The translations under genes were made by a program, and so were the position numbers. DNA of 36,501 nt, taken from an uncultured Eubacteriales bacterium. GTDB lineage: Bacteria > Bacillota > Clostridia > Lachnospirales > Lachnospiraceae. Positions 2,507 through 34,501 of this stretch are shown here, piece by piece. The notes under the pieces were generated by a model. That model was given only the letters and a program-made list of their open reading frames with translations. It did not search any database and had not been told where the DNA came from. The DNA lies in the NCBI GenBank assembly GCA_900320615.1, contig ONSX01000008.1:1-36501 (forward strand), read 5' to 3'. The stretch's first letter is position 1. Each line of letters opens with the position of its first letter.

Positions 2507-2525
2507 AATGTTCCCCCTCTTATGC

Positions 2526-4084: not shown

Positions 4085-4100
4085 AATTTTTCTCTTCTTG

Positions 4101-4157
4101 CTATTCAGTACCCAGACTCGGAATACGAAGCGTTCCAAGCCTGGGAATGCTGAATAG
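4101..4157 (-). other. Large intercistronic RNA hairpin
   Basis: In the reverse-strand transcript, CTATTCAG (8 bp) pairs with CTGAATAG. Inside it CCCAG pairs with CTGGG and CTTGGAA pairs with TTCCGAG (one G-U). It lies between two co-directional zinc-ribbon genes and ends a few nt before the ribosome binding site of the downstream one. No T run follows, so it is not an ordinary intrinsic terminator. An RNA-processing, stability or translation-control element is more likely. Confidence 0.7.
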
Positions 4158-4174
4158 TTACCCTTTCTTTATTA

Positions 4175-6268
4175 TTATTTCAGACGCTCTCCGATGGGAT
4201 GACCGCATTTAGTGCAGAACTTTGCGCCGGGTTTCAGTGGAGCTCCGCATTTAGTGCAGAATCCCTGAGACTGAGGCACCGGTGACGGGGCAGGAGCGAA
4301 AGAATCTTCCGTACGCTCTGCGGTATAAATGCCGTTTGAGCGCAGCGGAGCAGTCTGATCAGCAGAAACGTCCGGCCTGTCCGGAGGTATGGCAGCGCCT
4401 TCTGTAACAGGTGCCATTGTCTGTGCGGTCGGTTCTGTCGCGGAACCCCTGGAGAATTCTGCGGCAGACTTTTCTGCGGAATCAGCTGCGGATTTTGCGG
4501 CAGCCTCGCTCTGAAGCGCTCTGTCTACCATTGCTCTTGCTGCTGATTCCGCATGGGTCTGCGTATCACAGACTACATTTGTGCCTGTCTTCTGTTTACT
4601 TTGTGTATTGGATATTTCATCAGCTTCGGCCTTCGGGCTTTCCTGCTCAGTCTCTGGAGTGAGCGGAACAGCATGGATTAATGGATGAACCTTTCTCTTC
4701 GGAATAAAGATACGGGTACTTCCAGCGTCGCCTGCGTTCTGTGCTGGCTGCTTCGGAGCAGATGCCGGCGATTCTGCCTGCCTTGCCGCGGTAGGCTGAC
4801 TTCCCTGAGATACATGAGCTGAATCGGAATTTTCGCCAGGTCCTACCGGCCGATATGGAGCTGCGCTCTGATTCGGGTTAAAGCCCTGATTTGGGTTAAA
4901 GCCCTGATTCGGGTTAAAGCCCTGATTCGGGTTAAAGCCCTGATTCGGGTTAAAGCCCTGATTCGGATTAAAGCCCTGATTCGGGTTAAAGCCTTGATTC
5001 GGATTAAAGCCCTGATTCGGGTTAAAGCCCTGATTCGGGTTAAAGCCTTGATTCGGATTAAAGCCCTGATTCGGGTTAAAGCCTTGATTCGGATTAAAGC
5101 CCTGATTCGGGTTAAAGCCCTGATTCGGGTTAAAGCTCTGGTTCGGGTTAAAGTCCTGATTCGGGTTCATCCTCTGGTTCGGATAATAGTTCGGGTCCTG
5201 TGCTGACGGGCCTTTCTTCGGGGTGTTTCCGATTTTTCCGCTCGTTCTCATCGAGAAATGACCAGACCAGGTTGCCTCTTGTGTCCCATACCATACGGTG
5301 AGTGCGAGGATGAGGAAAATGAGACCCCAGATCGCGGTGCCGCCGAGTGAGAAGAGAGCGGATTTTTCTCCGGCATACGCAATGCCATTACTGGTCATAA
5401 ATTTATTGAATTTGACGACAAGGACAATGGATATGATAAAGCTGATAATAAATGAGCAGGCGTATGGAATCATCGCTATGGTCTTTTGATCAGACGGACC
5501 TGCCAGAATCCACAGCATAGCAAGAATTGCAAGAAGAACCACAGCAATGTTAAGCAGTGTGAGCAGAATGGCGCCTATACGAACAGCATCGGATATTTCT
5601 TCCAGCAGATTAATGAGAGTGGCAGGATCGGAAAGGTCACTCAGATCACCGTCACTGAAATCTTCGTTTTCAAAAGATTCGTCATCAAAATCGTCATCAT
5701 AATTGGTTAGTGCCTTCAGAATACCCAGATCTTTTGATAATGAATTCAGAACCCGTGCGTCGCCTGCGAGTTCTCCCATGCTGAACTTGCCATCACGTAT
5801 TGTCTTCAGCATATACAGGATGCCATTTGCATATTTATCGGTATTCATACTGATTCCATAATCAGACAGCCAACTCTGAATGGAGTGATTATATCCAGGG
5901 GTATTGAGAGCGCCCTTGGCCATTGGATACATTACAGAATAATAGTGTTCAATGGACACACCATAGATTGTTTTCGGCAGTTTGATCCATCCGCCGCACA
6001 GATAAAACAGCAGAGAAATGAAGACCAGCGCGGCCGCGATGATTTGTCTCACGCCCGGCGTCTTTCTGCCAGCTTTTCCGGATGTGAAAAATTGCCCTCT
6101 TTTTGTGAACGGACTCTGCTTCGGCTGTCTGTACGGAGCCTGTCCGTACGGATTCTGCCCCTGTACCTGTCCGTACGGGGACTGCTCATAGTGATCTTGT
6201 CCCTGCGGCTGTCCATACGGCATGCTCTGTCCGGGAGCATCTGAATAGTACGAATGGTTATTTTGCAT
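4175..6268 (-). CDS. Zinc-ribbon multi-pass membrane protein with NPNQGF repeat array
   Basis: 697 residues; the start ATG 6268 has GGGAGGGAA upstream. Residues ~1-60 are Gln/Tyr/Gly/Pro-rich (PYGQPQGQ). About four hydrophobic helices follow: one near 75-95 (IIAAALVFISLLFYLCGGW), then, after a ~130-residue loop, three between ~230 and 340. A stretch of about 17 hexapeptides based on NPNQGF comes next, then a long Ala/Glu/Pro-rich disordered region. The C-terminus is a zinc ribbon (CTKC...CTKC). The zinc ribbon is thus at the C-terminus rather than the N-terminus as in its neighbours. First gene of the leftward set, behind a promoter at 6318-6346. No known family could be named for the membrane part. 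Confidence 0.8.
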   Translation of the reverse strand: MQNNHSYYSDAPGQSMPYGQPQGQDHYEQSPYGQVQGQNPYGQAPYRQPKQSPFTKRGQFFTSGKAGRKTPGVRQIIAAALVFISLLFYLCGGWIKLPKTIYGVSIEHYYSVMYPMAKGALNTPGYNHSIQSWLSDYGISMNTDKYANGILYMLKTIRDGKFSMGELAGDARVLNSLSKDLGILKALTNYDDDFDDESFENEDFSDGDLSDLSDPATLINLLEEISDAVRIGAILLTLLNIAVVLLAILAMLWILAGPSDQKTIAMIPYACSFIISFIISIVLVVKFNKFMTSNGIAYAGEKSALFSLGGTAIWGLIFLILALTVWYGTQEATWSGHFSMRTSGKIGNTPKKGPSAQDPNYYPNQRMNPNQDFNPNQSFNPNQGFNPNQGFNPNQGFNPNQGFNPNQGFNPNQGFNPNQGFNPNQGFNPNQGFNPNQGFNPNQGFNPNQGFNPNQGFNPNQGFNPNQSAAPYRPVGPGENSDSAHVSQGSQPTAARQAESPASAPKQPAQNAGDAGSTRIFIPKRKVHPLIHAVPLTPETEQESPKAEADEISNTQSKQKTGTNVVCDTQTHAESAARAMVDRALQSEAAAKSAADSAEKSAAEFSRGSATEPTAQTMAPVTEGAAIPPDRPDVSADQTAPLRSNGIYTAERTEDSFAPAPSPVPQSQGFCTKCGAPLKPGAKFCTKCGHPIGERLK
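4867..5180 (-). repeat. 18-bp tandem repeats coding for NPNQGF
   Basis: About 17 head-to-tail copies of an 18-bp unit, nearly identical at the DNA level (only isolated T/C and G/A changes). They code for NPNQGF, with degenerate copies (RM, DF, SF endings) at the N-terminal side. The near-identity points to recent expansion and copy-number variability by slippage or recombination. The array stays in frame with any copy number. Confidence 0.97.
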
Positions 6269-6383: not shown

Positions 6384-6417
6384 AGATCCTGTTCATTGGG
6401 AAAGGTGATTGTCATTT

Positions 6418-7890
6418 ATGGAAGAAAAAGGGCTTACATTTATCTACGGAGGAAGGGTCCGCACTGCAGGGTTCCCGCGGCGAATGTTTCTTACGCGAGG
6501 CGGTGAGGATATGGAGGGGGCCTTTGTGTTCCCGGCACCGTTTCTCGGCAGAAGTCAAGGCTGCTTTGTCGAGGATGGAAAGGGCTGCTGCTATGTTGAG
6601 TTTGGTGAAGGGGGCCATGCCAGGCTGAACGGCCGTCCGCTCATGAAAGAGACGAAGACGTATCTGAAGGACGGCGATCTGCTTTCATTTTCAGAAGAAG
6701 AGATCCGGACGGACAGCGACTATCTTTATATCCTGTTCGGGGACAAATGCAGGACGCAGAACTGGAACCGTGTGTCCTTTCGCTCGGCTGTCGATCAGGT
6801 CACAGGCTGCAGCGCGTTCCGCCGGTCTAATGTCGGCTGGGCTGCTCTTACAAGAACGGGCAGCGGAGAGACCGTGATACGAAATGGTTCGGCAGCTGTA
6901 TCACCGGGGGAACTCATGACGGGAGAGGTCATCGGAGCGGGCGGGCGACTGTTCATTGTGCTTGAAGATGGGCTGCTCTATCAGCTGGAAAAAAGGAGGG
7001 CGCCAGAGAGAAGCTGCAACATTGCGGGCGCGCCGACAAATCTGCCGCTCACGATTAATCTCGAGGAGCGTTCCGTGCGGGTGCATTTCCGGAAGCATAT
7101 TTTGCTGAAGGATATCAGGCTCAGCATTGAGCCCGGGGAGATGGTCCTGATTCTCGGAGGGTCAGGCGCCGGAAAGACGACGTTCATGAATGCGGTCATG
7201 GGATACGAGAAGGGCAGGGGCCGCATTCTCTACGGAGGTACGGATATCTACAGTCACTTTTCGACTATGAAGCACCAGATCGGCTTTGTGCCGCAGGCCG
7301 ATCTCATGCGGACAGACGATACAGTTCGGAAAACACTCGACGACGCGGCAAAGCTGAAGCTTCCCGTGAAGATCACGACAGACAGACGGATGCGCCGTGC
7401 GCGCGTCGATGAGGTAATGGCCGAGATGGGGCTTACCAATGAGGCGGATGAGCTGGTATCGAAGCTCTCGGGCGGGCAGCGGAAGCGCCTGAGTATTGCG
7501 GTTGAGTTGATTTCCGACCCGGGTCTCTTTTTTCTTGACGAGCCGGATTCAGGGCTCGACGGAAATATGGCGCGCAATCTGATGGAGGAGCTCCGCGAGA
7601 TCGCGGAGAAGGGCAAGATCGTTCTTGTTATTTCCCATTCGCCGGACCGTGCGGCTGATCTTTTCGACAAGGTCATTGTTCTCGCAAAGAGCGAGGCGGA
7701 CAATATCGGTCATCTTGCCTACTACGGTTCTGTCGGTAATGCGTTCCGTTTCTTCGGGACGGAGTCGCTCGAGGAGATCGTAAAGAAGGTGAACCGGAAG
7801 GATGAAGGCGGAGACGGGCAGGCCGACGACTTTATCCGTTCATTTTCGATCATGAGAAGACAGAGAGAGCAGGCGGGAGGAAAGTTGTAA
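6418..7890 (+). CDS. FHA-like/ABC transporter ATPase (ABCG-type)
   Basis: ATG 6418 is chosen because AAAGGTG lies about 10 nt upstream; the TTG three codons earlier is too close to that site. Residues ~1-115 look like a degenerate FHA domain (FLGRSQG..., then LNGRPL...LKDGDLLSF). A second FHA-like segment may follow at ~125-200 (SAFRRSN...VIRNGS...GGRLFIVLEDG). The ABC domain is complete: Walker A GGSGAGKTT at 247-255, signature LSGGQ at ~350-354, Walker B LFFLDEP with D374-E375, and an H-loop (VISHS). The ATPase is most like ABCG/White-type exporters. The partner permease overlaps it by 1 nt. In Mycobacterium tuberculosis, Rv1747 joins FHA, ABC ATPase and permease in one chain and is a substrate of kinase PknF. 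The same parts occur here as separate genes, including a nearby kinase, so phospho-control of export is a reasonable inference. Confidence 0.85.
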   Translation: MEEKGLTFIYGGRVRTAGFPRRMFLTRGGEDMEGAFVFPAPFLGRSQGCFVEDGKGCCYVEFGEGGHARLNGRPLMKETKTYLKDGDLLSFSEEEIRTDSDYLYILFGDKCRTQNWNRVSFRSAVDQVTGCSAFRRSNVGWAALTRTGSGETVIRNGSAAVSPGELMTGEVIGAGGRLFIVLEDGLLYQLEKRRAPERSCNIAGAPTNLPLTINLEERSVRVHFRKHILLKDIRLSIEPGEMVLILGGSGAGKTTFMNAVMGYEKGRGRILYGGTDIYSHFSTMKHQIGFVPQADLMRTDDTVRKTLDDAAKLKLPVKITTDRRMRRARVDEVMAEMGLTNEADELVSKLSGGQRKRLSIAVELISDPGLFFLDEPDSGLDGNMARNLMEELREIAEKGKIVLVISHSPDRAADLFDKVIVLAKSEADNIGHLAYYGSVGNAFRFFGTESLEEIVKKVNRKDEGGDGQADDFIRSFSIMRRQREQAGGKL

Positions 7891-8759
7891 TGCGGTACGC
7901 GGGAAGGTTCAGACAGACAAATATCTATGTTGGCAAGCTATTCCGCATTTTTGTAAATGAGAAGCAGTGGAAAGGCTTTATCAGCGCGACAATTATCACG
8001 GCGCTGATCGCGTCCGTCACGGGAAAGCATATGTTCGTTGAGTATTCGGCGACGAGAAACGGAACGTTTGCGCTCATCTGCGCGTGCATCTGGATCGGTA
8101 TCTTCAATTCTATCCAGTCCGTGTGCAGCGAGCGCGGCATCATTAAGCGGGAGCACCGGTCAGGTCTCTACATGACATCTTACGTAACAGCACATATGGT
8201 CTTTGAATTTTTTCAGAGCGCGGTCGATGCGGCCCTTGTGACACTTGTCACGGTCTTCATTTTCGGCAGCAACATTCGCGATGCGGACGGTTTTAAAAAT
8301 GTTAACTATCTTCTGTTTTACGTGACATTTTTCCTGATTATTTATGCGTCGGATGTTCTCGGCATGATGATCTCCTGTATTGTGAAGACGCCGGAGACAG
8401 CGATGACGGTTATGCCGTTCGTCCTCATCATTCAGCTTGTCATGTGCGGCTTCATCTTTGAGCTCAAGGGAAAAGCGGCCGTGATCGGAAAGATCACGAT
8501 CAGCAAGTGGGGCATGAATGCGCTTGGAACGATCGCGAATATCAATAAAATGAAGCCCGCAGAGCCAGCACCGACAGCTGCGCAGGCGGACTATGTGAAG
8601 GCTCTGCAGGCAAGGTTCCTTGCGGACAAGTATTATGCCGACTATAATCCGGCCCATTTGCATGTGTATAAGATGTGGTTGATTCTGATTGGTTTCATTC
8701 TGCTATACATGGTTGTTTCGATCCTGTTCCTCGAGTTCATCGACAGGGACAAACGGTGA
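7890..8759 (+). CDS. ABC-2/ABCG-type transporter permease
   Basis: 289 residues, with its ATG overlapping the TAA of the ATPase gene by one base, so the two are translationally coupled. About six hydrophobic helices are visible: residues ~28-45, 55-75, a pair at ~105-165, ~168-190, and a final one at ~262-282. This fits the ABC2_membrane fold used by ABCG half-transporters. A larger loop lies between helices 5 and 6 (~200-255), as in that family. The final residues are charged (EFIDRDKR). It should form the membrane part of the exporter with the FHA-like ATPase. The substrate is unknown; the neighbouring kinase, transpeptidase and surface proteins suggest an envelope-related cargo. Confidence 0.82.
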   Translation: MRYAGRFRQTNIYVGKLFRIFVNEKQWKGFISATIITALIASVTGKHMFVEYSATRNGTFALICACIWIGIFNSIQSVCSERGIIKREHRSGLYMTSYVTAHMVFEFFQSAVDAALVTLVTVFIFGSNIRDADGFKNVNYLLFYVTFFLIIYASDVLGMMISCIVKTPETAMTVMPFVLIIQLVMCGFIFELKGKAAVIGKITISKWGMNALGTIANINKMKPAEPAPTAAQADYVKALQARFLADKYYADYNPAHLHVYKMWLILIGFILLYMVVSILFLEFIDRDKR

Positions 8760-8860
8760 AGGCCGCGACGGGTTCAGATCGGACCGCAGGAAGGTCAGGC
8801 ACTGGGAAAAGTGCATGGCCGTGTACAGGCAGCCACGCCGAAAAAAAGGAGAATGACAGG

Positions 8861-10858
8861 ATGGAGAGAAGAACCGGAAATTCATTTCAGGGAAGCGGGC
8901 ATGCACAGGATTCCGGAAAGCTGCAACCGGGATATGTCTGTCTCGGGACCTATGAAGTGGTCAGAAAGATCGGCGAGGGAACGGTGGGAGACTTGTATCT
9001 CGGCCGGCATCGCCGCCTCGGGAAGCCAATCGCCATCAAGGAGATCAAGTCAGAGTATGTGAGTCAGCTGGCGCCGGAGGATTTGAAGCGCGAGGCGGAT
9101 ATCCTGAAGAATCTGAAGAACCGGTACATCACGCAGGTCTATGATTTTGTTCAGAATGGGTCGGATGTCTACACAGTCATGGACTATGTCGATGGCAATT
9201 CGATGCAGGAGTATATCGATCACCGGGTGCGCTTCAGGGAGGCGGACATTGTCCGCTTCCTGCGCGAGAGCCTGGAGGCCCTTGATTATCTGCACACGAG
9301 GCGTCCGCCGGTCTTTCACCGCGACATCAAGCCCGCGAATATCATGATCGACCGGAACGGGGACGTATGCCTCATCGATTTCAATATTTCTCTCCGCGCA
9401 AATATGGAACATGAAATGTCCGGCTACACAGAAGGCTATGCCTCTCCGGAGCAGATCCATCAGGGCGAGCTGTATGACCGAGGCGGGAATTACATGAGCG
9501 TTCGCATCGACGGTCGGTCGGACATATATAGCCTCGGCGCGAGCTTTCTTGCGCTGATGACAGGACAGAAGGTCCGCGATATCAGGGCGAGGCGGCAGAG
9601 AGTCTGGCAGATCCCGGGAAATATCTACTCGGAGCAGCTCTGTCGTGTCATTGACCGCGCGATCGAGGAAAATCCCCGGAAGCGCTTTCAGAGCGCCGCG
9701 GACATGAGAAAGGCACTCGATACGATGTGGCTCCGCGACCGGGAGTACAGGAGTCTTCGGCGCGGACAGACTATCTATACAGCCGTGTTTCTTGTCGCTT
9801 TTGCGGCCGGCGTGTTCCTCTTTTTCTATGGAACGATGCAGAGAAAGTCGGAGGAGTTCCAGAACCGGTACAGCCGCCTGAAAGAACTCACGGATGAAAA
9901 CAGCTATGATGACGTGATCTCTGAAGGAACCGACATTCTGAATGATAGGGACTACACGCGCATTCTCAGCCGGAATCCGCAGGAAGAGGCGGATATCTAC
10001 TACATGATCGCGGACAGCTACTTCAGCCAGGATGACTATAACAATGCGATCACATTTTACCGGAAGGCGATCGAACTGAAGACAGACAATTCAGACTGCT
10101 ACCGGGATCTTGCAATTGCGTTTGCCCGGAATGGGCAGAGGACCGAGGCAGAGAAGATTATTGCGAAGGCGAATCAATATGGTCTCGGCAGTGCAGACAC
10201 AGACCTCGTCGACGCGGAGATCGATTACGGGAAGAAAAATTACGCGAACGCGGAGAAAAAATTCCGGAAGGCTGCGAATCTCGCGGGAGAAGATGAGGAT
10301 CTTCATTTCCGGGCATTGTACTATCTGGCGAAGGTATATGAAAAGGAAGGGGACTATGCAGGCGAGATCGACACGCTTGAAGAGGCCCGGAAGACGGTCG
10401 GGGAGAAGTACAGTCTGCCGCTTCTCCGCAAGGAGGGAGCTGCGTATTACTCGATTCTGAAGAAAGACGGTGAGCTTTCGGACACAGATACCAGAAGGGC
10501 GTATGATGTTTATCAGGTGCTGGTCAATGGTAGCGGGCAGACACTGGAGGATTGGACGAATTTTGCGACGCTTCTGCTCGCGAAGGAGGATTACGACAAC
10601 GCGGCAAAGGTGCTCGATGAGGCTGCAGAGAAATACAAGACGGCCTATCAGATTCCTGCGAAGATGGCGCTCGTTGAGCTCTACCGGCAGAGTGCACTTC
10701 CTTCTGAAAACCAGGACTACTCGAAATTCGATGAAGTGTATCACTGTGCGGAGAAGCTTTTTGCAGATGAGGAGCAGGCCGGGCAGAGCGATGAGGACAT
10801 GCATGACATAGAAACGGCGCATCAGAAGCTGCTGAGCGCGAAGCGGGTTTATTCATGA
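8861..10858 (+). CDS. Membrane Ser/Thr protein kinase with extracellular TPR repeats
   Basis: ATG 8861 (MERRTG) has AAAGGAGA about 9 nt upstream; the frame stays open back into the permease gene, but that part is not coding. The kinase domain is at ~30-290: Gly-loop IGEGTVGDLYLG, VAIK-type Lys60, catalytic loop H153-R154-D155 with IKPANIMID, and metal-binding D173 in DFN rather than DFG. The activation segment reaches YASPEQ and then DGRSDIYSLGA. A transmembrane helix follows at ~305-325 (TAVFLVAFAAGVFLFFYG). The outside part (~345-665) has several TPR-like helical pairs (e.g. ADIYYMIADSYFSQDDYNNAITFYRKAIEL). No PASTA repeats are present, so it is not PrkC/Stk. It probably senses a protein ligand through its TPRs and phosphorylates cytosolic partners, the FHA-like ATPase being the obvious candidate. 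Confidence 0.9.
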   Translation: MERRTGNSFQGSGHAQDSGKLQPGYVCLGTYEVVRKIGEGTVGDLYLGRHRRLGKPIAIKEIKSEYVSQLAPEDLKREADILKNLKNRYITQVYDFVQNGSDVYTVMDYVDGNSMQEYIDHRVRFREADIVRFLRESLEALDYLHTRRPPVFHRDIKPANIMIDRNGDVCLIDFNISLRANMEHEMSGYTEGYASPEQIHQGELYDRGGNYMSVRIDGRSDIYSLGASFLALMTGQKVRDIRARRQRVWQIPGNIYSEQLCRVIDRAIEENPRKRFQSAADMRKALDTMWLRDREYRSLRRGQTIYTAVFLVAFAAGVFLFFYGTMQRKSEEFQNRYSRLKELTDENSYDDVISEGTDILNDRDYTRILSRNPQEEADIYYMIADSYFSQDDYNNAITFYRKAIELKTDNSDCYRDLAIAFARNGQRTEAEKIIAKANQYGLGSADTDLVDAEIDYGKKNYANAEKKFRKAANLAGEDEDLHFRALYYLAKVYEKEGDYAGEIDTLEEARKTVGEKYSLPLLRKEGAAYYSILKKDGELSDTDTRRAYDVYQVLVNGSGQTLEDWTNFATLLLAKEDYDNAAKVLDEAAEKYKTAYQIPAKMALVELYRQSALPSENQDYSKFDEVYHCAEKLFADEEQAGQSDEDMHDIETAHQKLLSAKRVYS

Positions 10859-26239: not shown

Positions 26240-27760
26240 ATGAATAATGTACTGGAAATGCTTGAGAGAACAGCCGCGAGGCTTCCTGACAGACCCGCCG
26301 TGGCCGATGCGGAGCGCACCCTGACATGGGCAGAGCTTCTTCTTGCATCGCAGCGGGCAGGAAGTGCGCTCGCGGACAAAATATCCGGAAATAAACCGGT
26401 CGCGGTCTGTGCGGAGAAGAGCGCGCTCACCCTTGCCGTGCAGCTCGGCGTCGCCTATGCCGGTGGCTTCTATGTGCCGGTCAGCAGCGATCAGCCGGCG
26501 GATCGGGTGAGAAAGATTCTGGCGCGGCTGAAGACAGAGCTTGTTATTGCGGAGGAGAGTCAGATTCCGGCCGTCCGCGGCGCAGGTTTTGAGGGAGAGG
26601 TCCTCACGATTTCCGATCTGACAGCAGGAAATGAAGATCCGGATCGCGAAACACTCGCGCGCATTCGTGAGAGTGCCTCTCCCGACGATCTTCTGTATGG
26701 CATTTTTACATCCGGCTCCACAGGAGAGCCGAAATGCGTGTCAGTCAGCCACAGGTCGGTCATTGATTTCATTTCTCACTTCACAGAGATCTTTCAGATC
26801 ACGGAACATGACAGACTCGGCAATCAGGCGCCATTTGACTTCGACGTGTCGGTGAAGGACATATATTCCTGTCTCATGACGGGCGCGGAGCTTGTAATTA
26901 TCGACCGCCGGCTCTTTGCGATGCCGGCGAAGCTGATCGATTACCTGAATGACAAAGAGGTGACTGTCCTCATCTGGGCCGTGTCGGCGCTCACGACTGT
27001 GACAGCCTTAAAGGGTCTCGACTACGGGGTTCCGGGGTATGTGCGCCTCATTATGTTCAGCGGGGAGGCGATGCCGACCGGGCCGCTTGATGCGTGGAGG
27101 TCGGCGCTTCCGGAGACGGAGTTCGTGAACCTCTACGGACCGTCCGAGATCACGTGCAATTGCACATATTACCGGATCGGGAGGGACTCTGAGAAGGGCA
27201 GACAGATACCGATCGGAAAGCCGTTCCCGGGACGCAGGGTGTTCCTTCTCGACGAGCGCTGGCACGAGATTAAAGAGCCCGGGATAGAAGGAGAGATCTG
27301 CGTGGCCGGCGAGTCCGTCGCGGCCGGGTATTACAACGACCCGGAGCGGACACAGAAGAGCTTCGTGCATTTTGTGGCAAGTGACGGGAGGAAGCTGCGG
27401 ATGTATATGACCGGTGACCTCGCAAAGTACGACGAGGATGGGAACCTCATCTTCTGCGGGAGAAAGGACTTCCAGATCAAGCTGTTCGGCCACAGGATCG
27501 AGCTCGAGGAGATCGAGAAGGCAATCGCGAACACCGATGGCGTCTCGGACAGCTGCTGTGTATTCACGCCGGAAAACAGCCGGATCACTGCATTTTACAC
27601 GGGGACGGCGGACGCGCATGCGATCCGGGAGACGCTCGTTCGGGAGATCCCGAGATACATGCTTCCGCGCCGCTTTATCAGGCTCGAAAGTTTTCCAGTC
27701 ACCAAGAATGGCAAGAAGGACAGAAATGAGCTGCGCAGCCGGGCGATGGGCAGAGGCTGA
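26240..27760 (+). CDS. dltA: DltA-like amino acid-carrier protein ligase (adenylation enzyme)
   Basis: 506 residues, the length of DltA. It should activate an amino acid with ATP and load it on the carrier protein encoded at 29278. The adenylation motifs are present: P-loop GIFTSGSTGEPK (~residue 152), NLYGPSEIT (~297), MYMTGDLAKYDEDGNL, GRKDFQIKLFGHRIELEEIE, and the catalytic C-terminal Lys in VTKNGKKDRNEL. In characterised DltA the sequence FCGE carries the Cys (269 in Bacillus cereus) that selects D-alanine; here it is FSGE with Ser274. The A5 region is GPSEITCNCTYY rather than the GPTEATV-type of DltA. Specificity may therefore not be D-alanine. ATG 26240 is 12 nt after AAAGGAG. First gene of a five-gene cluster. 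Confidence 0.85.
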   Translation: MNNVLEMLERTAARLPDRPAVADAERTLTWAELLLASQRAGSALADKISGNKPVAVCAEKSALTLAVQLGVAYAGGFYVPVSSDQPADRVRKILARLKTELVIAEESQIPAVRGAGFEGEVLTISDLTAGNEDPDRETLARIRESASPDDLLYGIFTSGSTGEPKCVSVSHRSVIDFISHFTEIFQITEHDRLGNQAPFDFDVSVKDIYSCLMTGAELVIIDRRLFAMPAKLIDYLNDKEVTVLIWAVSALTTVTALKGLDYGVPGYVRLIMFSGEAMPTGPLDAWRSALPETEFVNLYGPSEITCNCTYYRIGRDSEKGRQIPIGKPFPGRRVFLLDERWHEIKEPGIEGEICVAGESVAAGYYNDPERTQKSFVHFVASDGRKLRMYMTGDLAKYDEDGNLIFCGRKDFQIKLFGHRIELEEIEKAIANTDGVSDSCCVFTPENSRITAFYTGTADAHAIRETLVREIPRYMLPRRFIRLESFPVTKNGKKDRNELRSRAMGRG

Positions 27761-27894
27761 GCAGGTGAGGAAAGACAATGCCTGTGGCGGACCTGAATCC
27801 GGTTGTGAAGGCTGCGGCTTAGCAGGTGCAGGCAGGAGATTGATTCGGAAAGGAGACGGCGGCTTTCGGAACGGGGCTGCTTTCAAAGTGACTT

Positions 27895-29157
27895 ATGACG
27901 GACGACATGCTGCGGGAAGCATTGAAGAACACGGGGACGCCTCTCTACGTCTATGATCTGGACGAGGCGGAGGGCCGCGCGGACGCTGTGCACGCCATGC
28001 TGGGAGACGATATCGGGCTGTGCTTTGCGATGAAGAGCAATCCGTTCATCGCAAAGACAATGGCTGGTCATGCGGATCGGATCGAGTGCTGCTCGATCGG
28101 TGAGTTCCGCATCGCGGTGAGACAGAACGTGCCACTCGAGAAAATTTTTTATTCTGGCGTCATGAAGACGAAGGAGGAGATTGCGGAGGTCATGGATCTC
28201 TGCGGGGAGCGGTGTACCTATACGGCGGAATCCGTCTCTCAGTTCCGCGATATCGCGGAGGCGGCGGAGGCGCGGCACATAAGGGTCCGCGTGTTCCCGC
28301 GCCTTACGAGCGGAAACCAGTTCGGCATGGACAGGGAGGAAATAAAAAACCTCCTCGCGCGGGCGGATAAGAGCCGCAGCGTGAGCATCAGCGGCATCCA
28401 CTATTTTTCGGGCACGCAGAAGAAGGAACATATGATCCGGAAGGAGCTGGACATGCTGAGGACCTTCTTCGACGAGCTGGCGGCGGAAGGATGGTCTGAC
28501 CTTGAGCTCGAGTACGGTCCAGGTTTCCCGATCGGCTATTTTGAAAATGACAGCCGCGGCATCACGGAGGATGCGGTGCGGCAGCTTGCGCTCCTTGCAA
28601 AGGAGATCGGAGCGGCTTATGTCACCTTCGAGATGGGACGGTTCCTTGCGGCCGGCTGTGGCGTTTATATCACATCGATCCGCGACATAAAGAAAAACGG
28701 AAAACAGACGTATGTGATTCTTGACGGTGGCATCCACCAGATCCAGTACGACGGCCAGATCCGCGGCATGTTCGTTCCGGAAATCACCGTTATGGGCCGT
28801 GAGAGCGGATCTGGCAGCGGGACGGCTGAACGTCTGGACAGAGCAGGTCAGCAGAATCAGACAAACACTGACGGCAGGACGGAACATCAGGGAGAGCCCG
28901 GCAAAGAGGCGCATACATATGTCCTCTGCGGGTCGCTTTGCACCGTGAATGATATTCTCTGCGCGCGCTACGACAGCGGCATCAGGCTCCTTGCAGGAGA
29001 TGTCCTCATTTTCCACAATGCGGGTGCTTACAGCGCGTTTGAGGGTATGGCACTCTTCCTGAGCCACGATCTGCCGGCGGTTGTGACATGGAGCCGGGCA
29101 GAGGGATTCCGGACGGTTCGGAAGAGCCTGCAGACCTGGCCGATGAACACGAAGTGA
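27895..29157 (+). CDS. Fold-III PLP-dependent decarboxylase (LysA/BtrK-like) in a dlt-like cluster
   Basis: 420 residues. An alanine-racemase-like barrel comes first, with the PLP Lys47 in LCFAMKSNPF, IECCSIGEF, IFYSGVMKT, a His in GIHYFSGTQ, the PLP-phosphate region LELEYGPGFP, and FEMGRFLAAGCGVY. The C-terminal beta-domain has CGSLCTVND (catalytic Cys349, Asp353) and FHNAGAYSAFEGM. These are marks of the ornithine/diaminopimelate decarboxylase family. Relatives include BtrK of butirosin synthesis, which decarboxylates a carrier-bound Glu. A polar ~40-residue insertion (SGSGTAERLDRAGQQNQTN...) precedes CGSLC. ATG 27895 lacks a clear ribosome binding site, and 134 nt without a gene separate it from the ligase. 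Its position between ligase and carrier protein suggests it prepares the loaded residue. The substrate is unknown. Confidence 0.85.
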   Translation: MTDDMLREALKNTGTPLYVYDLDEAEGRADAVHAMLGDDIGLCFAMKSNPFIAKTMAGHADRIECCSIGEFRIAVRQNVPLEKIFYSGVMKTKEEIAEVMDLCGERCTYTAESVSQFRDIAEAAEARHIRVRVFPRLTSGNQFGMDREEIKNLLARADKSRSVSISGIHYFSGTQKKEHMIRKELDMLRTFFDELAAEGWSDLELEYGPGFPIGYFENDSRGITEDAVRQLALLAKEIGAAYVTFEMGRFLAAGCGVYITSIRDIKKNGKQTYVILDGGIHQIQYDGQIRGMFVPEITVMGRESGSGSGTAERLDRAGQQNQTNTDGRTEHQGEPGKEAHTYVLCGSLCTVNDILCARYDSGIRLLAGDVLIFHNAGAYSAFEGMALFLSHDLPAVVTWSRAEGFRTVRKSLQTWPMNTK

Positions 29158-29187
29158 CAGCATTCGTTTTCCGCATCTGACATTCAC

Positions 29188-29221
29188 GCGGAAAAATCGG
29201 GATTGCGGAAAAATCGGGATT
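29188..29221 (+). repeat. 17-bp perfect tandem duplication
   Basis: GCGGAAAAATCGGGATT occurs twice head to tail in the 120-nt gap between the decarboxylase and carrier protein genes. It looks like a recent duplication. Confidence 0.9.
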
Positions 29222-29277
29222 CCGGATAAGGCATAACTATATGGAACGATCGATATGATCAGAAAGGAAGTAATTAT

Positions 29278-29517
29278 ATGAGTGAGAACCTGACAAATGA
29301 AATCATTGGCATCCTGAACGAGATTGATGACACAGTTGACTACAAGAACGAGAAGCATCTGATCGACGATCATATTCTCGATTCGTTCGGCATCATTTCT
29401 CTTGTCGCGGAGCTCGAGGGCCAGTACGACGTGAAGGTCAGCGCTGCTGATATGGTCCCGGAGAATTTCAATTCTGCAGACGCGATTGCGGCTATGGTTG
29501 AAAGACTGAGGAAATAA
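29278..29517 (+). CDS. Acyl/aminoacyl carrier protein (DltC-like)
   Basis: 79 residues; ATG 29278 has AAAGGAAG 8 nt upstream. It is a four-helix carrier protein with the phosphopantetheine Ser36 in HILDSFGIISLVAELE. DltC has DSM or similar at this place, ordinary ACPs DSL. Acidic recognition helix 2 (ELEGQYDVKVSAADMVPENF) is as expected. It would accept the residue activated by the ligase and pass it to the MBOAT protein, whose gene starts 4 nt later. The nearest role model is DltC of D-alanyl-teichoic acid synthesis. Confidence 0.9.
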   Translation: MSENLTNEIIGILNEIDDTVDYKNEKHLIDDHILDSFGIISLVAELEGQYDVKVSAADMVPENFNSADAIAAMVERLRK

Positions 29518-29521
29518 TCGG

Positions 29522-31048
29522 ATGACGTATTTCGAGGCGCTCTACCTGTTTCTGATGCTCCCGGCGCTGGTCATTGTCTACCAGCTTCTGCCGCGGAAAG
29601 TCAGGTGGATCTCGCTCCTTGCGGCGAGTATCCTCTTTTATGTGTCGATCAGCGGCGTTCTTCTGATCTGGGTCATCCTTGCAGCTGCGTGGACCTGGGG
29701 CCTCGGGATTCTGCTCGAAAACCTGCGGGGAGACAGAAGGCAGGGAAAGATACTTCTTCTCGGCATTCTGGGCCTCCTTGCCACGCTTGCCGTCTTCAAG
29801 TACGCGGGGTTTATCCAGATCAATGCGGGGCGGTTGTACAGACTGTTTCATCCCCGGCATCAGATCATCTGGAGGACATTTGCGGCACCGCTCGGAATTT
29901 CATTTTATACCCTGGATGCGATCGGCTATCTGACCGATGTCTTCTGGGGGAAAATGAAACCGGAGAAGAACCCGCTGCGGATTCTTCTGATCCTGTGCTT
30001 CTTCCCGAAGGTCATGGAGGGCCCGATCTTAAGCAGCGGCCAGCTTCAGAAGGAGCTGCGCGCCGGCGATCCGATTCGTTTTCAGAACCTCGCTGACGGC
30101 TCGATCCGGATCGTCTGGGGCCTCTTCAAGGAATATGTCATTGCGAACCGTCTGATCATTGACGTCAACGCAATTTTCAATCATTATGAGCAGTATAGCG
30201 GCGCGGTCATTGCCGTCTCGGGCATTCTCTACGCGCTTCAGCTCTATATGGATTTCTCCGGCACGATGGATGTCGTTCTCGGTTCCGCGAAGCTCTTTGG
30301 AATCGGGATGCCGGAAAACTTCCGCCAGCCTTTTTTTGCGGTGAATGCGTCTGAGTTCTGGCGCAGATGGCATATTACGCTCGGCGTCTGGTTCAGGACC
30401 TATATCTTTTACCCGATCTCGCTGTCGAAGCCGGTCATGAAGTGGAACCGCTATGCGCGGAAGAAGTACGGGCGGTATATCATGCAGCTCGGCACGACTG
30501 CGGTGTGCATCTTTCCGGTCTGGCTCGCGAACGGTGTCTGGCACGGCGGTCAGTGGAACTATCTGTTCTACGGCATGTACTACTTTGTGATCCTTATGAT
30601 CGAGGCGGCACTGGTGCCGGTCCGCAAGGGCATTGAGAAGAGACTTCCCGGGACATGGGCGAAGAACCTCTGGAAGCTGTTCCGGATCGTGAAAAACTGG
30701 TTTGTTATTTTCACGGGCGAGATGTTCTTCCGGGCGAACGGACTTAGAGCGGGATTTCGGATGTTCCGGAGCATGTTCCGCGGTTTTACATTCCGCACCT
30801 TTACGGACGGAACACTGTTCACCCTCGGTCTCAGCAGGGCGGGCTGTATGCTGGCGGGAGTCGGCATCATCGTTGTCTTTCTATACGACCTCTGCCGCGA
30901 GCTGAACTTCGTTCCCGACAAGAGAATTGGAAAATGGGAGACACCGGTCAGATGGACGCTCTATTACGCCCTGATCATCGCGGTGTTTCTGTTCGGTGCA
31001 TATGGCGCCGGTTATCTGAAAGTGGATATGATTTATGCAGGATTCTAA
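29522..31048 (+). CDS. MBOAT acyltransferase (AlgI/DltB family)
   Basis: 508 residues with about eleven membrane helices. MBOAT hallmarks: GISFYTLDAIGYLTDVFWGK, FFPKVMEGPI, YMDFSGTMDVVLGSAKLFGI, FRQPFFAVNASEFWRRWHIT and LGVWFRTYIFYPIS. The invariant His is His341 in NGVWHGGQWNY. The wording of these motifs is closer to AlgI-type proteins (alginate/wall-polymer O-acetylation) than to classical DltB. In the cluster it should move the residue from the carrier protein across or at the membrane to an outside acceptor. ATG 29522 follows GAGGAAA and is 4 nt after the carrier gene; its end overlaps the next gene by 14 nt. Confidence 0.92.
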   Translation: MTYFEALYLFLMLPALVIVYQLLPRKVRWISLLAASILFYVSISGVLLIWVILAAAWTWGLGILLENLRGDRRQGKILLLGILGLLATLAVFKYAGFIQINAGRLYRLFHPRHQIIWRTFAAPLGISFYTLDAIGYLTDVFWGKMKPEKNPLRILLILCFFPKVMEGPILSSGQLQKELRAGDPIRFQNLADGSIRIVWGLFKEYVIANRLIIDVNAIFNHYEQYSGAVIAVSGILYALQLYMDFSGTMDVVLGSAKLFGIGMPENFRQPFFAVNASEFWRRWHITLGVWFRTYIFYPISLSKPVMKWNRYARKKYGRYIMQLGTTAVCIFPVWLANGVWHGGQWNYLFYGMYYFVILMIEAALVPVRKGIEKRLPGTWAKNLWKLFRIVKNWFVIFTGEMFFRANGLRAGFRMFRSMFRGFTFRTFTDGTLFTLGLSRAGCMLAGVGIIVVFLYDLCRELNFVPDKRIGKWETPVRWTLYYALIIAVFLFGAYGAGYLKVDMIYAGF

Positions 31049-32051
31049 TAACAAGCCGGAGACAAGCAAGAACGGAACCGGCATCGGAAGAAAAATCGGG
31101 CGAACAGCCCTGTTCTTCCTGATTCTCTGCCTCATGGTCGAGGGCATATCGCAGATGATCAGTCGCAACCCGCGATATCAGAAGGGCGAGATCGGCGGCC
31201 GGAACGCAGTCTATGTGCGCCTTGCCAATGAGACGCCAGATTCACTCCAGGTTATCAATATCGGTGACAGCGAGAGCTACACGACGTTCAGTCCGATCCA
31301 GGCGTGGGAGGAGACAGGCATCACCTCCTACGACTGCGGACAGCCGGGACAGAGACTTGCAGAGACGATGACGATTCTGAAGGCTGTCTTCAGGCGGCAG
31401 CAGCCGGAGCTCGTTCTTCTGGAGGCTCATGACGCATTCACGAAGGAAACAATGGTCGACGATCTTGAGATGCGCTTCACGGAGCTCATCGGGCAGCTTT
31501 TTCCGGTCGTACGCTATCACAGCTTCTGGAACGCCGACACATATGAGAGCGCGATAGTCTCGAATTACAAGGGCTTCGGGATTCGGACGGCCGTGCATCC
31601 TTATGACGGGAAGAATTACATGTCCCGTAAAATGAAAAACGTGACGGTCAGCACTCTCAGCATGCGGAGTCTTGAGGAAATCCGTGACTACTGTGAGAAG
31701 CGCGGCGCAAAACTTGTCCTCTACAGCGCGCCATCACCGAGAAACTATAATCAGGCGCGTGTGGACGCGCTCACGGCAGCGGCGGCGGAGCTCGGGGTCG
31801 ATTACATCGACCTGAATAGTATTGCGGATGAGATCGGTATCAACTGGTCCACGGACTCACTCGATGACGGCGATCATCTGAACCTGTCCGGCTCGGAGAA
31901 GACGACCCGCTATCTCACAAAATATCTGGTGGATATGTGCGGGATTACAGGCATTGAAAACAATCCGGCGCAGGCGTCCTGGGCAGAGGATGCAGCGAAT
32001 TATGACAAGGAGGTCGATGGGCTGATTGAGAGGATTCGTGGCATTGTGTGA
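31035..32051 (+). CDS. SGNH-hydrolase-type membrane protein (DltD/AlgX-like role)
   Basis: 338 residues. An N-terminal anchor helix is at ~26-42 (ALFFLILCLMVEGISQM), then an extracellular SGNH fold. Block I is INIGDSES with Ser79, and block V DDGDHLNLSG gives the Asp278-x-x-His281 pair. FVLYSAPSP-like strand KLVLYSAPSPRNYNQ lies between. Such proteins accompany MBOAT transferases (DltD in teichoic acid D-alanylation, AlgX/PatB/OatA modules in acetylation) and pass the acyl group to the final acceptor. Classical DltD signatures are absent, so it fits the AlgI-like partner. ATG 31035 lies inside the end of the MBOAT gene, showing tight coupling. Last gene of the cluster, followed by a terminator. 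Confidence 0.85.
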   Translation: MQDSNNKPETSKNGTGIGRKIGRTALFFLILCLMVEGISQMISRNPRYQKGEIGGRNAVYVRLANETPDSLQVINIGDSESYTTFSPIQAWEETGITSYDCGQPGQRLAETMTILKAVFRRQQPELVLLEAHDAFTKETMVDDLEMRFTELIGQLFPVVRYHSFWNADTYESAIVSNYKGFGIRTAVHPYDGKNYMSRKMKNVTVSTLSMRSLEEIRDYCEKRGAKLVLYSAPSPRNYNQARVDALTAAAAELGVDYIDLNSIADEIGINWSTDSLDDGDHLNLSGSEKTTRYLTKYLVDMCGITGIENNPAQASWAEDAANYDKEVDGLIERIRGIV

Positions 32052-32091: not shown

Positions 32092-32117
32092 AAAGGGCGC
32101 CGGAGATGGCGCTCTTT
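32092..32117 (+). terminator. Terminator after the dlt-like cluster
   Basis: AAAGGGCGCC pairs with GGCGCTCTTT (one G-U) around a short GAGAT-type loop, then CTTTAT. It lies 40 nt after the SGNH gene and directly ahead of the response-regulator gene. Confidence 0.8.
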
Positions 32118-32156
32118 CTTTATATAATATATTTATCTGGGGAAATGGAGAATGGT

Positions 32157-32885
32157 ATGGACATGCAGAAATCTTATACAGTGCTGATCGCGGAGGATGA
32201 TCCGGATATCATCGCGGTGCTGAAGCTTTATCTCGAGAACGGCGGATATAAGGTGGAATCCGCCTCCGACGGCCGCGAGGCGCTTCAGGTCCTCGATGTG
32301 AAGCATATCGACATCGGCATTTTTGACATTATGATGCCGCATATGAACGGCTACGAACTGATCCGGCGCGTCCGGGAGATGAGCAATATGCCGATCATCG
32401 TTCTCTCCGCCAAGCAGGAGGACAGCGACAAGATCCTCGGGCTTGATCTCGGGGCGGACGATTATCTGACGAAGCCGTTTAATCCGCTCGAGGTCGTCGC
32501 GCGCGTCCGGGCATCGCTCCGCCGGTTCTATAAGCTGTGCGGCTCGGACGCAGGGCAGGAGGATGTCGCCGAGGCGGGGCCATTCCGGATTGACAGGCGC
32601 ACGATGCAGCTGTTTAAGGACGGGCAGGAGATCTCCGTCACGCCGATGGAGCTGAAGATCATGCTCCTCCTCATGCGTCATCCGGGGCGTGTGTACACGA
32701 AACTTCAGATCTACGAGGCTGTGAGCGGAGACTGCTTTGCGGCAGAAGAGAATACGATTATGGTTCACATCTCAAATCTCCGAGACAAGATCGAGGAGGA
32801 CAGCAAGAAACCGAAATATCTGATCACGGTCCGGGGGCTTGGATATCGGTTCGCAAATCAGAATGAGCTCCGGAAGGGATCCTGA
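32157..32885 (+). CDS. OmpR/PhoB-family response regulator
   Basis: About 242 residues. ATG 32157 (MDMQKSY) is preferred, with GGAGAA 6 nt upstream; in-frame ATGs at 32106 and 32145 are less well placed. Receiver domain: acidic pair in IAEDDPD, phosphoacceptor Asp57 in GIFDIMMPHMNG, Ser/Thr switch in IVLSAK, and Lys in LTKPFNPLEV. The winged-helix effector domain at ~140-235 has VTPMELKIMLLLMRHPGRVYTK and VHISNLRDKIEED...ITVRGLGYRF, the usual OmpR-type DNA-recognition end. It pairs with the kinase 2 nt downstream. A perfect TATAAT at 32123-32128 could be a -10, but no -35 fits. Its position suggests control of the dlt-like cluster. Confidence 0.95.
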   Translation: MDMQKSYTVLIAEDDPDIIAVLKLYLENGGYKVESASDGREALQVLDVKHIDIGIFDIMMPHMNGYELIRRVREMSNMPIIVLSAKQEDSDKILGLDLGADDYLTKPFNPLEVVARVRASLRRFYKLCGSDAGQEDVAEAGPFRIDRRTMQLFKDGQEISVTPMELKIMLLLMRHPGRVYTKLQIYEAVSGDCFAAEENTIMVHISNLRDKIEEDSKKPKYLITVRGLGYRFANQNELRKGS

Positions 32886-32887
32886 TT

Positions 32888-34501
32888 ATGAAAACAAAGC
32901 ATGCAAAGAAGGCGCGGAAGTCTGGGAGCCTCTATTCCTTTATGATCCGAAGTCTCGTGTTTCTTGTCGCGGCTATGGTGCTGCTCGGTCTTCTGCTTGT
33001 GTCCTTCTCTGTGTATATTCCGGAGTATATTTTGAACGGCATCGGGACCGGAAGTTTCCTGAAACAGCTCCCGCTTCTTAAGGCGGATCAGTATGATGAG
33101 GTGGAGGCACAGAAATATCTCGGGAAAAATGGATATTTCGAGGTGCTGGGCGAGGATGCGCACGTCATTTACTGCAGCAGGAGCGACAAGAAAAATACAT
33201 ACAGCGTGGATTCTCTGCAGTATCTCACGGACTATCAGAAGGGCGTGAGCTATATGATCGAGTCTCTCGAGCCGGGCGGGAAGGCCAATGGCTATGTCCT
33301 CTCTTGCTATAAGGACAACGGAAGCAGCTGGATTCTGCAGGGAATCGCTGTGATTGACAGCCGACGGTACATCGTCTATACGAACCTGGAGCTCTCGGGA
33401 TCGAGGGTCTCGAAGAACACGATCAACCGCCTGTTTACCAGCAGTCTCGATGATAGCGGGCGCATGGTCCTTCAGAAGACGATGTACACGGACAATGACG
33501 GCCATACGCGTTATCTCCTGATCCACGCGGAGAGCACGCAATATATCTATGACCACCTCTCTGGGAAAGTGACGGATATTCTCATTTTCGTATTTGCGGT
33601 CTGTGTGATCCTTCTCATTATTCTGGTCGGCCTTCGGATGGTCGCGAAGATACGCCGGCCGCTCGCCGTACTGGATGGGGCGCTGAAAGGGTTCATTGAT
33701 GGAGAGAGAGAGCCGGTCCGGGACTACAGGGGGCCGAAGGAATTCGTGCAGATTATTGACACATTCAACGACATGTCTGACAAACTGGCCAGGAGTGAGC
33801 AGGAGCAGAGACGTCTCGAGGAGCAGAAGCGGAAGATGCTGGCGGATATCTCGCATGACCTGAAGACGCCGATCACTGTGATCAGCGGATACGCGCGGGC
33901 AATCGAGGACGGGCTGATTCCAAGAGAGGACGAGGAGAAGTACGTCCGGATTATTTCACAGAAGGCGGATCTGCTGGAGGAACTCATCAGCTCATTCAGT
34001 GATTACAGCAGGCTCGACCACCCGGATTTTCAGCTCGTGCTCGAGCAGGGTGATCTCTGCGAGTATTTCCGCAGCTATATGGCTGGCCGCTATCAGGAGC
34101 TGCAGCTTGGCGGCTTCGGAATGGAGGTCGATATCCCGGACGAGAAGATTGAGACTCAGTTCGACCGCATGCAGCTTAAGCGCGTCTTTGAGAATATCAT
34201 CACGAATTCGATTCGTCACGCAGGTGCGGGGGCGACAATCTACGGGAGCATCTGTGTCAAAAATAGGCAGGCGGTTATCGAGCTCGGGGACAGCGGGCCG
34301 GGTATCCCGGAGGAGTTCCGGGATCACATCTTTGAACCATTTGTCATCGGCGATGAGTCGAGAAAGAGCGGGGGCGGCAGCGGCCTCGGCCTCTCGATCG
34401 CAAAAAAGATCGTGAACAGGCACGGAGGCACGATTGCACTTGTTGAGCCGGGAAAGGGACGGACGGGAACCTGGTTCCGGATCTGCCTGCCGATCCAGTG
34501 A
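32888..34501 (+). CDS. Membrane sensor histidine kinase
   Basis: 537 residues. TM1 is at ~18-40 (MIRSLVFLVAAMVLLGLLLVSF) and TM2 at ~228-248 (ILIFVFAVCVILLIILVGL), flanking a ~185-residue outside sensor domain. A HAMP-like segment follows, then HisKA with the phosphoacceptor His323 in LADISHDLKTPITVISGYA. The HATPase_c domain has N (ITNSIRHAG), G1 (ELGDSGPGIP), F (IFEPFVIGDESRKSGG) and G2 (GSGLGLSIAKKIV) boxes, so it should be fully active. The class is VanS/ResE-like. The signal is unknown; with a surface-modification cluster alongside, envelope stress or cationic peptides are plausible. Only 2 nt separate it from the regulator gene. Confidence 0.94.
   Translation: MKTKHAKKARKSGSLYSFMIRSLVFLVAAMVLLGLLLVSFSVYIPEYILNGIGTGSFLKQLPLLKADQYDEVEAQKYLGKNGYFEVLGEDAHVIYCSRSDKKNTYSVDSLQYLTDYQKGVSYMIESLEPGGKANGYVLSCYKDNGSSWILQGIAVIDSRRYIVYTNLELSGSRVSKNTINRLFTSSLDDSGRMVLQKTMYTDNDGHTRYLLIHAESTQYIYDHLSGKVTDILIFVFAVCVILLIILVGLRMVAKIRRPLAVLDGALKGFIDGEREPVRDYRGPKEFVQIIDTFNDMSDKLARSEQEQRRLEEQKRKMLADISHDLKTPITVISGYARAIEDGLIPREDEEKYVRIISQKADLLEELISSFSDYSRLDHPDFQLVLEQGDLCEYFRSYMAGRYQELQLGGFGMEVDIPDEKIETQFDRMQLKRVFENIITNSIRHAGAGATIYGSICVKNRQAVIELGDSGPGIPEEFRDHIFEPFVIGDESRKSGGGSGLGLSIAKKIVNRHGGTIALVEPGKGRTGTWFRICLPIQ

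Follow-up and report, generated by a model that had tools for sequence, protein, structure and literature searches.

A Dlt-like gene cassette with a BtrK-like decarboxylase in the Lachnospiraceae, a candidate system for surface aminoacylation

The window analyzed here is a stretch of 36,501 nucleotides from an uncultured Eubacteriales bacterium of the family Lachnospiraceae (assembly GCA_900320615.1, contig ONSX01000008.1, positions 1 to 36,501). Its forward strand carries, at 26240-32051, five genes in one direction, here called A, K, C, B and D, which code for a ligase, a fold-III pyridoxal phosphate (PLP) decarboxylase, a carrier protein, an MBOAT membrane acyltransferase and an SGNH protein, confirming the gene content proposed in the initial annotation. 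These five genes are a conserved cassette which, from the sequences of its proteins, is not dltABCD. Our reading, to which we give a probability of roughly 0.55, is that the cassette would be a Dlt-related but distinct system of carrier-fed surface aminoacylation, with loading of Asp or Glu, decarboxylation on the carrier and transfer by B and D. The five genes are as follows.

26240..27760, forward strand: A, stand-alone amino-acid adenylation enzyme, DltA-like but not DltA (TIGR01733, 349 bits, above the cut-off of 317)
27895..29157, forward strand: K, fold-III PLP decarboxylase, BtrK-like (Pfam PF02784/PF00278)
29278..29517, forward strand: C, acyl carrier protein (PF00550, 21.0 versus 20.8 bits)
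29522..31048, forward strand: B, MBOAT membrane acyltransferase of 508 amino acids (PF03062, 45 bits)
31035..32051, forward strand: D, SGNH protein (GDS motif, N-terminal helix)

Linkage of the five genes and comparison with Dlt

Using K as query against 299 genomes of the window's family, matches at E <= 0.001 were found in 100 genomes. The best score reached at least 114 bits, counted here as a strong match, in 59 of them, and was at most 80 bits in the remaining 41. The neighborhood of K was read in 61 loci, namely the window, 58 other genomes with a strong match, a second locus of G090 and the G108 locus (80 bits). Genes A and C were each present near K in 58 of these loci (together in 55), B in 48 and D in 47, and all four accompanied K in 44. 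The genes run strictly in the order A-K-C-B-D in 31 of the 61 loci, and other arrangements of them are also found. Median gaps, computed from the first possible start codons, are -4 bp for A-K (51 pairs), 2 bp for C-B (33 pairs) and -14 bp for B-D (34 pairs); in the window the A-K and K-C intergenic gaps are each shorter than 135 bp, no micro-ORF search for a DltX having been made there. Outside the five cassette families, each protein cluster is limited to 12 of the 61 loci or fewer, and an additional synthetase common to the loci is therefore not seen.

The same arrangement recurs outside this set of loci. Among the best 80 of 555 relatives taken from GTDB genomes with names, part of which repeat contigs of the 61-locus set, the exact order is present in 46; when only the loci of at least 15 kb within these 80 are considered (46 loci), A, K and C are present together in 44 and the full set of five in 42. 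The records include Blautia, Mediterraneibacter, Schaedlerella, Roseburia and Lacrimispora. Nine of 291 genomes drawn across the class (groups f1, f38, f59, f62 and f66) have K at 460 bits or more; below them, the highest score falls to 236. Two of the nine are the window and G257, and all seven newly read loci have A-K-C-B-D, with the K-type pocket code described below in their ligase. None of six weaker K homologues that were read (158-238 bits) has B or D within 5 kb. 

D-alanylation is the textbook route by which Gram-positive bacteria tune their surface charge. The cassette resembles the corresponding Dlt system (dltXABCD, D-alanylation of teichoic acids) in combining ligase, carrier, MBOAT and SGNH genes within a single operon and in an aminoacyl thioester as donor. 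It differs by an additional BtrK-like decarboxylase, by a pocket code which is not that of DltA, by an MBOAT that itself bears a shuttle-like tail, DltX serving this purpose in Dlt, and by the scores of A, B and C, which miss the equivalog cut-offs: 290 bits versus 559.85 for A with the DltA model (TIGR01734), 135 versus 375 for B with the DltB model (TIGR04091, its sole NCBIfam match), and 44.7 versus 68 (NF003464) and 27.8 versus 52.35 (TIGR01688) for C with the DltC models. The presence of its own decarboxylase together with an altered ligase pocket suggests that the cassette probably attaches an amine-bearing group other than D-alanine. Over cut-off, DltA was found in 8 and DltB in 12 of the 299 family genomes. 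A mutual exclusion of the K cassette and true dlt was considered and is refuted by G082 and G152, which hold both.

The ligase pocket, the decarboxylase and the export pair

The pocket of the window ligase reads D202, V203, K206, I245, M272, S274, L298, C306, N307 and K492. Where pocket positions are given below with GrsA numbers, these were mapped onto A by hand from the core motifs; the published GrsA-VinN position pairs cover 235/236/301/330/331 only. A code string for glutamate A domains (SrfA-A1) was looked for in the literature without success and plays no part in the comparison. Among 125 distinct K-linked A proteins, counted after exclusion of those shorter than 440 amino acids or below 200 bits and of near-identical copies, 115 have the code D-V/I-K-x-x-S-x-C-N-K, nine have I-A-R-x-x-S-Q-A-S-K, and a single one (L088) has D-A-K-C-A-V-L-G-V-K. 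A Lys or Arg occupies the GrsA-239 position in all 125 and in 12 of 12 racemase-linked A proteins (see below), versus none of 13 DltA-type genes, and Ser is present at position 301 in 124 of the 125, matching S299 of VinN. The DltA comparison comprises 26 rows, each of 13 DltA-type genes from the window's family having been fetched twice; eight of the 13 exceed the equivalog cut-off and five score 513-546 bits. These rows read D-L-M/F-V-L/I-C-T-V/G-A/C-K, the final letter missing in 2 of the 26, and the pocket of A departs from them at positions 236, 239, 301 and 322. The D-Ala pocket of DltA is formed by L198, a Met at the 239 position and C268/269 (PMC11253843), and is not matched by the window A, which has V203, K206 and S274 instead.

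A ligase tree was built from 83 rows (34 of the 125 K-linked A proteins and 9 of the 26 DltA rows among them; quick search without bootstrap). The nine DltA rows are split off by a branch with a Shimodaira-Hasegawa-like approximate likelihood ratio (SH-aLRT) of 85, and all non-DltA ligases except the long-branched L241 lie behind a branch with an SH-aLRT of 100.

K retains the active-site residues of a fold-III PLP decarboxylase: the PLP lysine K47, E246/R249 of the E-x-G-R motif, C349/D353 and Y379. The catalytic Cys and Asp are present in 59 of 59 K rows with letters there, and K as a racemase was set aside on the grounds of their retention. BtrK is known to decarboxylate carrier-bound glutamate. 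A profile of K searched against the PDB places two BtrK entries on top (211 bits), followed by 6knh (175) and by LysA structures at 172 bits or less, which upholds at profile level the relation to BtrK proposed initially, though for the single window sequence a LysA structure ranks above BtrK. We regard K as a BtrK-like decarboxylase that, at profile level, appears closer to BtrK than to LysA.

The possibility that K is a housekeeping LysA, or is found beside these genes in one genome only, had been named as what would speak against the proposal, and neither applies. Of the 59 K genomes, 30 were searched for a separate LysA homologue, and 29 of these, the window genome included, have one (258-420 bits); the sole exception is G001, which is 74% complete. 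K scores 126 bits with the LysA model TIGR01048 versus a cut-off of 297.9, a cut-off that is strict here, as nothing passes it in 26 of the 30 genomes. In a tree of 32 of 60 K rows and 14 LysA-type proteins (quick search without bootstrap) the two groups part at an SH-aLRT of 99. The residue after the catalytic Cys is Thr or Ser in 59 of 59 K proteins with letters there and Glu in 11 of the 14 LysA-type proteins of the same genomes, while position 171 is Phe or Tyr in 60 of 60 K proteins and His (7) or Phe (7) in the 14. A housekeeping LysA is thus rejected on the separate homologues, the tree split and the missing Glu. The window K also carries a low-complexity insert of about 30 residues near residues 301-335 (window ~28795-28900). 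In L035, a relative from the same genus, this insert is larger, and in most of the other aligned K proteins it is reduced or missing.

The phosphopantetheine serine of the carrier (S36) is kept in 54 of 54 aligned carriers. B harbors the motif GVWHGG with the MBOAT histidine H341; H341, G338 and W340 are invariant in 23 rows, and its profile retrieves only DltB chains from the PDB at 1e-5. It ends in MIYAGF (Y505), in which the Tyr and last Phe of an F-x-Y-x-x-F motif are kept and Met replaces the first Phe. In PatA and DltX such a C-terminal motif hands the acyl group on to the SGNH protein by way of its Tyr. In Dlt the motif lies on DltX, a protein apart from DltB; in other MBOAT-SGNH systems it is part of the MBOAT itself (PMC12148441). 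A Y-x-x-F end is present in 98 of 108 distinct K-type B proteins (open 3' ends, scores below 100 bits and identical cores excluded), in 12 of 12 of the racemase type, all of which have the strict F-x-Y-x-x-F, and in 0 of 12 DltB. Of 19 B proteins scored as lacking K or a racemase nearby, 16 have the tail motif, two of the 19 (L080 and L088) in fact coming from K loci. The tail of B therefore looks like an acyl shuttle in cis of the PatA/DltX type, and in this respect the MBOAT departs from DltB, as had been suspected, with a feature known from PatA and other non-Dlt MBOATs. D has the GDS motif serine S79, the C-terminal D277/H281 and the fold of an SGNH hydrolase, as well as an N-terminal helix (16-43) that is a probable membrane anchor. 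Searches with its profile and alignment gave no PDB relative by sequence.

Proposed route, precedents and alternatives

A ligase and a free carrier are combined with a PLP decarboxylase, shown or proposed to act on the residue bound to the carrier, in BtrI/BtrK (butirosin), VinN/VinL/VinO, FlvN, BolO/BolC/BolN and AfcQ/AfcK/AfcP. In vicenistatin biosynthesis, VinN/VinL/VinO comprise a ligase, a free carrier and a decarboxylase working after loading (PMC11284099), and the same logic was proposed for BolO/BolC/BolN of bolagladin (PMC7756342). For AFC-BC11 the conversion of L-Asp to beta-Ala on the carrier by AfcQ/AfcK/AfcP was reconstituted, and AfcQ does not activate beta-Ala (PMC12186527). Such systems supply the assembly of polyketides or peptides, or the side chains of antibiotics, whereas the carrier of the cassette faces an MBOAT/SGNH pair. 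The exosortase-A ligase and decarboxylase belong to the same broad families, and TIGR03099 is the top NCBIfam model of K, but the scores with TIGR03098 and TIGR03099 are far under the cut-offs (199 versus 592 and 142 versus 478). PatA/PatB and AlgI-type systems have an MBOAT with a C-terminal Tyr shuttle motif, which the tail of B resembles, and, like the cassette, an SGNH partner. They differ in that the non-Dlt MBOAT-SGNH routes have, in the account given by the authors, no carrier protein and evidently use acyl-CoA donors (PMC12148441), whereas the cassette has a dedicated carrier. With this carrier and the tail of B, the cassette couples a carrier protein with an apparent cis shuttle.

Starting from what the sequences offer (five linked genes with intact catalytic residues, the pocket code, the shuttle-like tail and the kinship to BtrK), the following route can be proposed. 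A would activate Asp or Glu and attach it by the side-chain carboxyl to the phosphopantetheine arm of C. K would then strip the alpha-carboxyl on the carrier, so that Asp would yield beta-alanyl-S-C and Glu 4-aminobutyryl-S-C; we infer the substrate, the carboxyl used and the order of these two steps. B would carry the resulting omega-aminoacyl residue through the membrane and onto the Tyr of its C-terminal tail, and D, outside, would accept it on its serine and pass it to a hydroxyl of a surface polymer. This last transfer is suggested by the known roles of MBOAT-SGNH pairs, and with it the presumed acceptor and effect, namely an amine-bearing ester, chemically unlike the D-alanyl one, that would lower the negative charge. 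The initial proposal of a decarboxylated residue loaded and exported by a chemistry different from D-alanylation gains support in this way, the residue, its side-chain loading and the polymer being putative. In VinN, D230 was proposed to read the amine and S299/R331 the alpha-carboxyl of beta-methyl-Asp (PMC7756342). A has the equivalents of D230 and S299 (D202 and S274), and K206 could replace the VinN Arg. This shared Asp and Ser, together with the racemase of some sister cassettes, leads us to lean slightly toward Asp and beta-alanine over Glu and 4-aminobutyrate (GABA). The pocket Lys would suit a second carboxylate rather than a lysine side chain, which makes the diamino acid also suggested by the initial annotation a less likely substrate.

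Several observations weigh against this proposal. R331 of VinN is replaced by N307 in A, and the shortened beta13-beta14 loop described for VinN has no counterpart as a gap at that stretch relative to LgrA A domains, no direct alignment with VinN having been made; the pocket of A therefore does not appear to be that of VinN, though the logic of the precedents fits. Ile replaces the amine-binding Asp in 9 of the 125 K-linked A proteins. Of seven A proteins with the K-type code but no K nearby, two are in genomes with K elsewhere (G001 and G082) and five in genomes where K has no match at E <= 0.001 (G002, G176, G276, G147 and G158), so the code does not require K. When the single window K is searched against the PDB, a LysA structure comes first (84 bits) and BtrK fifth (67 bits). 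The strict F-x-Y-x-x-F is present in only 26 of the 108 K-type B proteins, and the window has MIYAGF. Finally, at least one of A, C, B and D is absent nearby in 17 of the 61 loci, some of them at contig ends, and L039, L042, L043, L044, L047 and L062, which are not at contig ends, have A and C without B or D; L042 belongs to G257, one of the nine genomes with the strongest K in the class draw. No shared partner was found for these A-K-C loci: an adenylosuccinate synthetase and an SEC-C protein (the two that were scanned) look housekeeping, and the others were inspected by eye.

It is unlikely, though not negligibly so, that K acts on a free amino acid and that A loads ready-made beta-alanine, GABA or, if K uses diaminopimelate, lysine, with export unchanged. 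Such a scheme would easily explain the five K-free genomes with the same pocket by a product coming from elsewhere, and is in line with the use of free amino acids by LysA-like fold-III decarboxylases and with the first rank of LysA for the single K sequence. It agrees less well with the K profile, nearest to BtrK among solved structures, with the missing LysA-type Glu, and with a pocket Lys that would fit a second carboxylate and not the side chain of lysine; moreover, in the precedents the thioester is formed first (PMC11284099, PMC12186527), and AfcQ is inactive on beta-Ala (PMC12186527).

We consider it improbable that the residue instead enters a small secreted product, a peptide or lipid acylated by B and D, rather than a wall or capsule polymer. 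The association of MBOAT and SGNH genes with A and C near K in 44 of 61 loci and the lack of any shared extra synthetase, no other cluster exceeding 12 of 61, argue for surface transfer, against which stand the at least six loci off contig ends that contain A, K and C with neither B nor D close by, and the carrier-like genes that adjoin some intermediate or weaker K relatives in other settings (L301-L303). Ordinary D-alanylation by a divergent dlt operon, with a LysA-type or racemase-type gene present by chance, is very improbable: the gene set does mirror dltABCD, and DltA, DltC and DltB are among the top NCBIfam models for A, C and B, but these proteins fall far under the equivalog cut-offs, the pocket differs at four positions (236, 239, 301 and 322), the cassette ligases group apart from DltA, G082 and G152 possess true dlt alongside K, and K is not LysA.

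Sister cassettes, neighboring genes and significance

Forty further loci with a DltA-like ligase but no K nearby were taken from the top of the list of DltA-like proteins, that is, not at random. An aspartate-type racemase adjoins A in 12 of them:

L257, L259, L261-L266, L268 and L271-L273: racemase-type loci that also contain carrier, MBOAT and SGNH genes

Exceptions are L264, without a carrier match, and L272, where the C, B and D genes lie about 2 kb upstream of the racemase. Two of the racemases were scanned with NCBIfam; they match TIGR00035 with 204 and 215 bits (cut-off 93) and also pass the cysteate racemase cut-off. All 12 racemase-linked ligases read D-A-K-C-A/C-G-L-G-M-K. In L261 and L262 the racemase is preceded upstream by a separate transglutaminase/Ig-like protein, and in L088 (6213-9557) K, a long linker and a transglutaminase-like domain of this kind form a single frame of 1114 amino acids, a fusion that joins a cytoplasmic-type PLP enzyme to a surface-type domain. 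The L088 ligase falls inside the racemase-linked clade, though its locus has K. Matches of 61-214 bits that pointed to a K homologue next to racemase cassettes proved to be an artefact of the L088 transglutaminase tail in the K profile and vanished with a profile rebuilt without it.

Other K-less loci combine the K-type pocket code with a formyltransferase-family gene beside A or C:

L251, 8322-9188: formyltransferase-family gene, ligase with K-type code, no K nearby
L260, 5422-6303: formyltransferase-family gene, ligase with K-type code, no K nearby
L253, 2-850: formyltransferase-family gene, ligase with K-type code, no K nearby

In L245 a GNAT gene lies between A and C. These swaps suggest a single export chassis with changeable tailoring enzymes, partly for acidic amino acids. 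The DltA-like ligases of L235, L237, L238, L248, L250, L269 and L270 have Ser or Val for the amine-binding Asp and hydrophobic codes; carrier, MBOAT and SGNH genes are nearby in five of these seven loci, and the ligases possibly handle another acyl group. A broader and more tentative view, which we hold at somewhat less than even odds, is that gut Clostridia share a modular A-C-B-D surface-acylation chassis with plug-in decarboxylase, racemase, formyltransferase or GNAT and several pocket codes, yielding unseen amino-acid esters that would largely replace D-alanylation in this family. The decarboxylase would then lead to beta-alanyl or GABA, and the aspartate-type racemase to D-Asp or similar products.

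Downstream of the cassette, the window contains the following features.

32092..32117, forward strand: terminator-like hairpin of 11 pairs, 3' of D (the number of hits in the region is not above that in shuffled sequences)
32106..32885, forward strand: neighboring OmpR-type response regulator (PF00072/PF00486), its real start probably 3' of 32106
32888..34501, forward strand: neighboring sensor histidine kinase (HisKA, HATPase_c)

An OmpR-type regulator lies directly 3' of the cassette in 12 of the 61 K loci, and that of the window is a possible regulator of the cassette. Promoter-like matches are not enriched (5 versus 3.7 in shuffled sequences, standard deviation 1.9). Elsewhere in the window, an ABC-type ATPase extended by about 200 residues at its N terminus, an unassigned protein and a PknB-like Ser/Thr kinase are encoded in series at 6409-10858 (forward strand), and no NCBIfam model matches the proteins of the minus strand at 1055-6268 at 1e-10.

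In the literature on such a cassette or its product, as far as titles and abstract openings of part of the matches go, no published description was found. The cassette unites a carrier-protein donor and an apparent cis shuttle tail, two features which a 2025 paper keeps apart (PMC12148441), and the pocket codes render the substrate directly testable. A strong K is present in 59 of 299 family genomes, versus 12 of 299 with a canonical DltB over cut-off. If beta-alanyl or GABA groups are indeed installed, these gut-type bacteria would bear a different surface amine, a new way of altering bacterial surface charge that may be relevant to antimicrobial peptide tolerance and host recognition, and, were the group GABA, they would hold a bound pool of it.

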